NCBI GenBank assembly: GCA_030052745.1
Contig: JANBVO010000015.1
Location: 434,001-498,000, forward strand
DNA: 64,000 bases
Direction: 5' to 3'
Origin: Pleurostoma richardsiae
Lineage: Eukaryota; Ascomycota; Sordariomycetes; Calosphaeriales; Pleurostomataceae
How positions within the stretch are numbered: the first letter of the stretch is position 1; each line of letters starts with the position of its first letter. The notes under the pieces are model-generated. The model saw nothing but the letters and a program-made list of their open reading frames with translations, ran no database searches and was not told the origin of the DNA. Below are positions 9,275-33,793 of the stretch, one piece after another. The position numbers were made by a program, and so were the translations under genes.

Positions 9275-9375
9275 AGCCCTACGTGGGGGTCGAACCCACA
9301 ACCTTGAGATATCATGAGTCTCCGCCCTGAGGCGGGATTAAGAGTCTCACGCTCTACCGATTGAGCTAGCAAGGC
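9275..9375 (-). tRNA. tRNA-Lys(CUU) with intron
   Basis: Complete cloverleaf. Acceptor GCCTTGC pairs with GTAGGGC using G-T wobbles. D-arm is GCTC/GAGC, anticodon stem TGAGA/TCTCA, loop CTCTTA-A with anticodon CTT at 9342-9340, and T-arm GTGGG/CCCAC around TTCGACC. A 28-nt intron (9338-9311) sits at the canonical position after nucleotide 37. The mature length is 73 including the discriminator. Box A and box B are intact. Confidence 0.95.
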
Positions 9376-27779: not shown

Positions 27780-29376
27780 ATGATGAAAAGCCAGAGATTC
27801 TTGAGACGCGTGTGGCCGAAAGTATCAAAACGTCCACCTCCTCCAGTCAGCGCATGCCTCAGCATTCACACAACTTCGCGTGGTTCTCTGCGCTATCCCT
27901 TGCCTAATATGGTTTCTCCAGCTGTTCCTGCAGACAAGAAATTTAGGGTCTTGGTCGTGGGAGGCTCGTATGCCGGTCTCTCGACGGCTATGAACCTTCT
28001 GGATCTCTGCAGGGGCCGACCGGCGCGCATGTCCGCCGAAGATAACCATTCCGGCGTGAAGATCCCGATAGAAGTCACCATTGCCGACGAGCGGGATGGT
28101 TTTTGTAAGCCTGCATCGACCTTCCTTCCTATTTGACACGTCACTCACGCCAAGTAAACAGACCATCTTGTGGGCTCCCCTCTCGCGCTGCTCTCCCGAG
28201 GGTACGCGGACAAGGCGTGGGTCAAGTTTGATGAAATCCCAGCCCTCCAGTCGCCGAGCATTCGATACATTCGAGGAAGTGTCAAGACTGTGGATATTGA
28301 AACTAAGACAGCTACCTTCGCTGGGGACGACTCCGAGGAGGCCACTCATGAGAGCTACGATTTCCTCGTTGCTGCGTCGGGCCTGCGCCGCGTGTGGCCG
28401 GTTGTACCGCAGTCGCTTGACAAAGATGGTTACCTGCAGGAGGTGGAAAATAACATCCAAGCAGTTTCCGCTTCCAACAAAGGAGTTGTAGTAGTCGGTG
28501 GCGGTAAGCTGTTCAACCGCAACCTAAAAGCTCTCGCTATCCGCTAACCGTGCTCTTATCAGGTGCGGTAGGGATCGAGATTGCCACGGAGATGAAGGTT
28601 CTGTACCCGACAATCAAGGTTACGCTGGCTCACTCCCGCGAGAGGCTCCTGTCATCAGAGCCTTTGCCCGATGATGTCAAGGCAAAAGCGCTGGAGTTAG
28701 CTCGTGACGCCGGTGTAGAAATACTGCTCAAGCACCGCGTCGACAAGGTCGACCACATCACAGAGCCTGACGGCAGCGCCAGCAATATTATCACGTTTAC
28801 GAATCGGGAGGAGATCACGGCAGGCTATGTGGTCAACGCAATCTCCAGGGCTGTCCCTTCAACGTCTTACCTCCCAGAACAGTTCTTGGACGAGAGTGGT
28901 TACGCGAGGATTCGAGCAGAGTAATACACCCCCTTTTCATTCCCGGCGAGCTGCTTTCTAACTGAAGACTACAGCTTGAGCGTCGCCAGCTCGGACAGCT
29001 TACTGGACCACTTCGCCGTTGGTGATATTGCTCGCTGGTCGGGGATCAAGCGGTGCGGTGCTGCAATGCACATGGGCCACTACGCCGCCGTGAACATCCA
29101 CCAGCTGATGCTTAGGGACATGCTCGGGCACGAACCGAAGCTAATGGAGCTGCCAGAAATCCCACCGATGATTGCACTGGCAGTCGGGAACAGCGCGATT
29201 GCGTACGGGCCCCAAGGTATGGGCGTAGGGAAGGAAGTCAGCGACCACTTCTTTGGCAATGATATGGCTCTGAAGGGTATGTTCTCCCATATTTCCATTC
29301 TTTGACATGCTATCCGCATCTCTCTAACGAGTCTGCAGGCTGCTGGGATCAGTTAGGCCTCTCACAGGCATTGTAA
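27780..29376 (+). CDS. AIF/AMID (FSP1)-like FAD-dependent NAD(P)H oxidoreductase
   Basis: Pyridine nucleotide-disulfide oxidoreductase family, related to AIF-like NADH:quinone oxidoreductases. Exons 27780..28104, 28162..28503, 28563..28920, 28975..29276 and 29339..29376 give 454 aa. The FAD motif is VLVVGGSYAGLSTAMNLL. The NAD motif is split by the second intron and reads VVVVGGGAVGIEIATEM. The second FAD contact is HFAVGDIARW. The start at 27780 adds about 43 residues rich in Arg, Ser and Pro without acidic residues before the ATG at 27909, consistent with a mitochondrial presequence. The shorter form would be cytosolic. Both starts may be used. Neighbours are the 2OG oxygenase and tRNA-Val. 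Confidence 0.9.
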
Positions 29377-32806: not shown

Positions 32807-33291
32807 CCCAGGCTTAGGATAGAGCTCGCATTAGGGCAGTAACACGGTCCTTTACTCTAACAAAGGTTGTACGCGGGGCGAACCACTCCAATAAGCACAT
32901 ACGGACCTGACCGACGCCTAAGGGAAGCCGTCAAGAACTAGTCACTTGCTAGGACTAGACCTAGAGGGCTCAAGAGAGGTGAATTCCAAAGGCTGACTTA
33001 GTTTGCCCACCAATTTCAGCCTTCTGGAGTAGCAAAGGTCGTGAATGACTTAGAGCTATAGAGCGAACAGCAGCTCACCAAGAGAGCAGGAGAGCTCCGG
33101 CCGTGGCGAGCAATAAGAACAGTGGGTGCGCTCGCTCAGTGTACAGTACCATCCATTCATGGCATACGCCGAGGATGCGGAGTCGGGCTAACGTACGGTC
33201 TAAAATTTTACACTATCGTGCATCATCTCTTTATCGCGGCATAAGGTAAAGGAGATCAAGCAAAGGGAAAAAGGAGGCAAAAAAAGATGCT
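32807..33291. other. intergenic, 3' of SDR and of tRNA-Leu
   Basis: A 485-bp region with no gene. It ends with the tRNA-Leu Pol III terminator. Confidence 0.5.
33279..33285 (-). terminator. Pol III T7 terminator for tRNA-Leu
   Basis: A T7 run on the minus strand starting 7 nt past the tRNA 3' end. It argues that the unusual tRNA gene is still a Pol III unit. Confidence 0.8.
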
Positions 33292-33443
33292 TGACGAGAG
33301 TGGGACTTGAACCCACGCGGATTTCTCCACTAGGAAACACTGTTAAGGATGTGCCTTAACCTAGCGCCCTGATTTGTTGTTAGTTTGATTCTGAGAATCA
33401 GAGAGACAATGTCAACTTACATAACCAACTCGGCCATCTCGCC
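33292..33443 (-). tRNA. tRNA-Leu(AAG) with two introns, one in the D-loop
   Basis: Class II tRNA. Acceptor GGCGAGA pairs with TCTCGTC (one G-T). Box A (TGGCCGAGTTGG) is intact. The D-stem GCC is separated from its partner GGC by a 52-nt insertion at 33420-33369. After that come anticodon stem CTAGG/CCTAG, anticodon AAG at 33357-33355, and a canonical 18-nt intron at 33353-33336 whose CTTAA can pair with the anticodon region. The variable arm is GGA/TCC, T-arm GTGGG/CCCAC around TTCAAGT, discriminator A. Removing both insertions gives exactly 82 nt with every helix intact. The D-loop insertion is described as its own feature. A pseudogene is possible, but no arm is damaged and a T7 terminator follows. 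Confidence 0.85.
33369..33420 (-). other. 52-nt spliceosomal-type intron inside tRNA-Leu D-loop
   Basis: On the minus strand the insertion starts GTAAGT, has ACTAAC at 33384-33379 (branch A about 11 nt from the end) and ends CAG. All three match the consensus used by the protein-coding introns of this window. Its length is also typical of them. It lies just after box A, between GGTTAT and GGCGCTAGG. Confidence 0.8.
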
Positions 33444-33793
33444 TGCTGTTGTTGTTAGTCAGCCTAAAACTGTCTGCACTTATGAAGGTAACGCAAGCAG
33501 CTTGACCTTGATTGTGCCGCCGCACAAGTGCTGGATACGCATTAACAGGTCGATTTTCCCATTTATTCATGATTTGATTCCTTCCTATGGATTGTTCTGC
33601 ACTATCATCCATCTGTTCTCCCATATAACTGGTTCTGATCCTCGCTCGCTCCTGTCTTGCTAACCCAGATACATTCAGGAGGGAATCCAGATGATGACTC
33701 TTGACAGCATTCCTTCGCACTACTGCTTGCTTAATGAGACTAGCATTGCATGGGTAGCAGATCTACACACTATGATCACACTTCACGTCAAGA
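33444..33793. other. intergenic, 5' of tRNA-Leu and 3' of BBE gene
   Basis: A 350-bp AT-richer region with no recognised element. Confidence 0.5.

Follow-up and report, generated by a model that had tools for sequence, protein, structure and literature searches.

Four tRNA-Leu(AAG) genes of Pleurostoma richardsiae with a probable spliceosomal intron in the D arm and an ordinary intron after the anticodon

The tRNA-Leu(AAG) genes found in Pleurostoma richardsiae, four in number, are probably working genes in which a U2-type spliceosomal intron interrupts the D arm and a second intron, spliced by the tRNA endonuclease, follows the anticodon. A probability of about 0.84 is assigned to this reading, which was obtained by sequence comparison. 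One of the genes lies in the window, that is, the whole stretch of 64,000 nucleotides analysed here. Its 152 nt comprise three exons and two introns of different kinds (Table 1), and the Rfam tRNA family matches it above the gathering score of 29 in a scan restricted to positions 33200-33520. The sequence-only reading of the window had placed a tRNA-Leu(AAG) gene on the same span, and the present analysis recovers it on the minus strand. Removal of both inserts yields a class II tRNA of 82 nt with box A and box B kept and a T7 terminator, as had been proposed, and the canonical 18-nt intron after position 37 is present with CTTAA opposite the anticodon. Two details of the D-arm insert differ from the sequence-only reading. 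The 52-nt insert of the form GTAAGT...ACTAAC...CAG was found as described, but the branch motif, said to stand 11 nt from the end, ends 10 nt before it. The insert does lie in the D arm, although not strictly in the D loop: it divides the 3' half of the D stem, falling after position 22 and before position 23 as numbered in this analysis.

Table 1. Positions of the tRNA-Leu(AAG) gene parts in the window, the contigs of the four copies, and the mRNA intron used for comparison
Feature	Position	Strand	Basis or remark
tRNA-Leu(AAG), whole gene	33292..33443	-	RF00005 32.6 bits, sequence and joined product
Exon 1: 5' acceptor strand, box A, D loop up to position 22	33421..33443	-	sequence
Box A, TGGCCGAGTTGG	33425-33436	-	inside exon 1
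D-arm intron, 52 nt	33369..33420	-	aligned with the inserts of the three other copies
5' splice site GTAAGT of the D-arm intron	33415-33420	-	
Branch site CTAAC of the D-arm intron	33379-33383	-	
3' splice site CAG of the D-arm intron	33369-33371	-	
Exon 2: D stem 3' strand, anticodon stem 5' strand, anticodon, G37	33354..33368	-	
Anticodon AAG	33355-33357	-	in exon 2
Ordinary tRNA intron after position 37, 18 nt	33336..33353	-	CTTAA opposite anticodon
Exon 3: anticodon 3' strand, variable arm, T arm, acceptor 3' strand, discriminator A	33292..33335	-	
Box B	33303-33313	-	in T arm of exon 3
T7 run, Pol III terminator	33279..33285	-	
Window copy (L031)	contig C44		
L032, L033, L034	contig C104		all within 27 kb
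Yardstick mRNA intron, flavin oxidoreductase gene, 59 nt	28504..28562	+	GTAAGC...CTAAC...CAG

A DNA search of the genome (39.4 Mb, 136 contigs) with the window gene gave four loci, all of them tRNA-Leu(AAG). The D-arm insert is present in each, with lengths of 52, 54, 54 and 54 nt, which answers a question raised by the sequence-only reading, namely whether other tRNA-Leu(AAG) genes of the same genome have or lack it. The ordinary intron after position 37 is likewise present in every copy, at 18-19 nt and with CTTAA opposite the anticodon. A search of the genome with the exon-joined sequence found no uninterrupted tRNA-Leu(AAG), and the next match was tRNA-Leu(TAG), another leucine tRNA. The pattern of the 5' half, GGCCGAGTTGGTTA, occurs at four places in the genome, one per copy. 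The pattern of the 3' half (TTAAG followed by the T arm) occurs at six, comprising the four genes and two places recognised as a tRNA by neither Rfam nor ARAGORN. Because similarity in the flanks ends within about 20 nt, except for a stretch common to the neighbours L033 and L034, the four genes are not recent segmental copies. Scans of genome contigs and viral contigs returned no fungal relative, the sole matches being two bacterial MAG loci (L074 and L075).

The splice signals of the D-arm inserts are kept in all four copies. Each insert starts with GTAAG and ends with AG, preceded by C in two copies and by A in L033 and L034; 3' splice sites with AAG are rarer than those with CAG or TAG. 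The branch motif, CTAAC in three copies and CTAAT in one, always ends 9-10 nt before the end of the intron. In L034 a TAG stands directly behind this motif, and splicing would have to skip it. The base before the donor GTAAGT of the window copy is T. None of the four inserts contains TTTT, a run that would stop Pol III inside the intron.

The remainder of the insert has diverged widely. Mature sequences are identical at 77-82 of 82 positions between copies, and the D-arm inserts share just 34-41 positions over 54-67 aligned columns; for L032 and L033, the mature tRNA is identical throughout (82/82) and the D introns agree at 37/67. In the alignment of the four inserts, 17 of 55 columns are invariant, including all 11 signal columns (GTAAG, CTAA and AG) and six of the other 44, although both the aligner and the choice of a GT-AG register favour agreement at the insert ends. 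The hypergeometric probability of this concentration on the signal columns is 1e-7, with columns taken as independent and the kinship of the copies ignored; the copies are related, and their splice signals are not four independent observations. Insert interiors were also compared with shuffled sequences. Shuffles reached the observed similarity in 0/300 cases for L031-L032 and for L032-L034, in 1/300 for L031-L033 and in 14/300 for L031-L034, while the interiors of L032-L033 (38/300) and L033-L034 (270/300) are no more alike than shuffles. A single origin of all four D-arm inserts is likely on this comparison, though two of the six pairs fall within the shuffle range. In the window copy and L032, the 18-nt anticodon introns are identical, and the D introns agree at only 40/58 positions. 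Because of this disparity, the two introns of one gene appear to differ greatly in evolutionary rate or in conversion history.

The sequence-only reading had equated the signals of the D-arm insert with those of the mRNA introns in the window. An intron in a flavin oxidoreductase gene served as yardstick and bears this out, having signals and size as in the D-arm introns. The Pfam domain Pyr_redox_2 stops before it at profile position 150 and restarts behind it at 153, both matches being slightly under the Pfam cut-off score. Twelve further candidate mRNA introns of the window measure 52-90 nt, and eight of them begin with GTAAG, a count obtained with a filter that itself demands such signals. 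The combination of a GTAAG start and an AG end arises by chance with a frequency of 2e-5 to 5e-5 (each of the four inserts shuffled 400,000 times). Multiplied together, the separate frequencies of the start, of the end and of YTRAY located 5-15 nt upstream of the end give 4e-6 to 8e-6. The pattern GTAAGT..CTAAC..CAG occurs twice in the window, once as the D-arm insert, against 0.10 occurrences expected.

The alternative that survives best, although it is unlikely, is that the insert belongs to the noncanonical tRNA introns, which the tRNA splicing endonuclease cuts, and that its GT-AG appearance is incidental. Such D-arm introns are described for Cyanidioschyzon and archaea in passages of two sources (PMC3978253, PMC9602550). 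The placement of the inserts is relevant here. The junction reads GGTTAT/GTAAGT...CAG/GGCGC in the window copy and GGTTATGG/GTAAG...AG/CGC in L032, L033 and L034, where positions 24 and 25 flank the insert. Relative to these, the two splice sites of the window copy are each shifted by two bases without any effect on the product. A joint movement of GT and AG that leaves the product unchanged is expected if the machinery reads GT and AG. Since a register between positions 23 and 24 is available to every insert, a position-measuring endonuclease would allow the same placement too.

The sequence-only reading had also noted that a bulge-helix-bulge fold at the insert ends would favour endonuclease processing. 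The motif was defined as two three-base bulges, located at the splice sites and separated by a helix of four pairs. With both orientations and both registers considered, one of 16 trials has four pairs, against 0-3 in the anticodon introns used as positive controls. The four-pair core is that of the window copy in the GT-AG register (GGTT with AATC). The maxima in the other copies are three pairs in L032 and L034, for each in a single register that differs between the two, and at most two in L033. In a count restricted to one orientation, the inserts form 0-2 pairs, and the real anticodon introns fail as well. Random four-base strings give four pairs in 2% of cases and three or more in 15%. 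The window copy allows such a helix, but it is not kept across the copies, and no register offers at least three pairs in all four. Since the ordinary anticodon introns of these genes score only 0-3 of four, failing the helix test says little. Against the endonuclease, the invariant columns fall on GTAAG, CTAA and AG, which it does not need; the yeast enzyme, moreover, is described in a passage of PMC4033280 as cutting introns at 37/38 only. Because the conserved columns of the insert are the signals of the spliceosome, removal by the spliceosome is far more likely than removal by the endonuclease.

The sequence-only reading had left a second possibility, a tRNA silenced by intron invasion. 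In this case the four genes would be intron-invaded pseudogenes, and CUU and CUC would be read by another tRNA. There are just four copies, and the genome contains a tRNA-Leu(UAG) (L041) that could in principle read other CUN codons, as its counterpart does in budding yeast. However, the four copies keep their arms, both promoter boxes and their terminators (T7, T6, T5 and T7). Of 136 pair cells counted in six leucine tRNAs of the genome, including three AAG genes, 99.3% are standard. At the acceptor pair 4-69, G-C of the window copy corresponds to A-U of the other three, and at the anticodon-stem pair 28-42, L034 has C-G where the other three have U-A; judged from the aligned genes, these differences are compensatory stem changes among the AAG copies. 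The lack of any uninterrupted tRNA-Leu(AAG) in the genome search also speaks against silencing, as does the codon usage of the window. A tRNA-Leu(AAG) with inosine at position 34 reads CUU and CUC, and these two codons account for 198 of the 431 leucine codons counted in eight long open reading frames as listed, some of which may include intron ends. A search of the genome for a second tRNA for CUU and CUC, by a pattern of TTGAG followed by the T arm, gave seven places and no tRNA-Leu(GAG); five are not tRNAs, one is a tRNA of another family, and one lies within the tRNA-Leu(CAG) gene L043. Silencing of the whole set is consequently very improbable. Equally improbable is that the mature tRNA retains the insert in an enlarged D loop and loses just the anticodon intron: in the window copy, the strands GCC and GGC of the D stem lie outside the insert and could pair around it, but the insert of L032, L033 and L034 splits the D-stem 3' strand between 24 and 25, and little in the insert is conserved besides the splice signals.

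The window copy is reported neither by ARAGORN with default settings nor by the default Rfam scan of the whole window, and none of the four genes is among the 63 of 807 candidates scored in the Rfam tRNA search of the genome. When introns are allowed, ARAGORN calls L031, L032 and L033 as Met, Cys and Ser tRNAs with introns of 58-62 nt and misses L034; such miscalls are a likely source of wrong annotation. Comparable genes could therefore stay unseen. Two further tRNA genes with introns were recorded. One, in the window at 9275-9375 on the minus strand, is a tRNA-Lys with the anticodon CTT as read, an ordinary anticodon intron and a normal D arm. The other, L077 (C76:55360-55530), has a 42-nt anticodon intron and is called Thr(agt) by ARAGORN, although its loop may read Ala(AGC).

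The sequence-only reading had also suggested looking for similar inserts in other tRNA genes. Box A followed within 2-8 nt by GTAAG occurs at 22 places in the genome, compared with 45 in a reversed-pattern control. A full match in T arm and acceptor, scored as 14 of 14 points, is confined to the four Leu(AAG) genes; scores at the remaining 18 places are 7-11, and with this pattern no tRNA gene besides Leu(AAG) was found to carry such an insert. For box A followed by GTATG, the pattern count alone is 27 places against 35 in the control. A broad box-B pattern could not be used because of its noise: it matched 336 places, and the control 321.

Under the preferred reading of a spliceosomal D-arm intron, processing may be envisaged as follows. 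Pol III would transcribe tRNA-Leu(AAG) from its own box A and box B. The nuclear spliceosome would then take out the D-arm intron as a lariat by means of GTAAG, CTAA(C/T) and AG, and its removal would restore the D stem. Afterwards, the tRNA splicing endonuclease and ligase would remove the intron after position 37, in an order that is presumed. The sequence-only reading had put forward a Pol III transcript dependent on both the spliceosome and the endonuclease. The comparison of the four genes points the same way, with an insert in every copy, invariant signals in an otherwise diverged intron, compensatory changes in the exons and a two-base slide of the boundaries. The supply of tRNA-Leu(AAG), and thus the decoding of CUU and CUC, would probably depend on the spliceosome, which on the codon counts given above probably stands between the fungus and the decoding of nearly half its leucine codons. 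This dependence might be eased by tRNA-Leu(UAG) if it partly covers CUU and CUC. On balance, the analysis leans towards a stronger proposal, in which the whole isoacceptor family is an obligate client of the spliceosome, kept as such while its introns diverged widely, and spliceosome capacity limits the translation of nearly half the leucine codons. If this is true, the decoding of common codons is tied to splicing, and a direct link between splicing and protein synthesis becomes possible. A tRNA that needs both systems would demonstrate that tRNA precursors made by Pol III are within reach of the spliceosome, and it would provide a natural substrate for studying how the spliceosome finds uncapped Pol III transcripts.

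Among known systems, the canonical eukaryotic tRNA intron after position 37 is present in each of the four genes; it accounts for the anticodon intron and not for the D-arm intron. Accounts of RNA splicing treat the spliceosome and tRNA splicing as separate systems, among them a 2026 review in which tRNA splicing is by definition spliceosome-independent (PMC13149111), and searches of open-access papers found no spliceosomal intron in a tRNA gene. The D-arm tRNA introns of red algae and archaea, described in part of PMC3978253 as cut at bulge-helix-bulge motifs, are alike in position and in some genes stand beside an anticodon intron (PMC3978253 and, in a passage, PMC9602550). However, those introns rely on the bulge-helix-bulge motif and the endonuclease, whereas here GT-AG and the branch site are kept in all four copies and the helix is possible in the window copy alone. 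Spliceosomal introns in ascomycete rDNA and in a Rhodotorula U2 snRNA gene, known from titles in the reference list of PMC2586383, are similar in that they lie in structural RNA genes of fungi. They differ in belonging to Pol I or Pol II genes, which are not tRNA genes and have no link to decoding.

A further parallel is offered by U6 snRNA. The one U6 gene found in the present genome (L051 1401-1700, C49:929565-929667) is intron-free as read, in a search in which 47 of 2115 candidates were scored. Its stretch TGCACTAAGGACG differs from the form known from other fungi. Introns of mRNA type are present in U6 snRNA genes of fission yeast and of some basidiomycete yeasts. Those of fission yeast (PMC10484740) resemble the present case as short spliceosomal introns within a Pol III noncoding RNA gene. 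U6 itself belongs to the spliceosome's catalytic centre, and its intron is proposed to have arisen by reverse splicing. In the case described here, by contrast, the host is a tRNA, all four copies found are affected, and a second, enzyme-spliced intron is present in the same gene.
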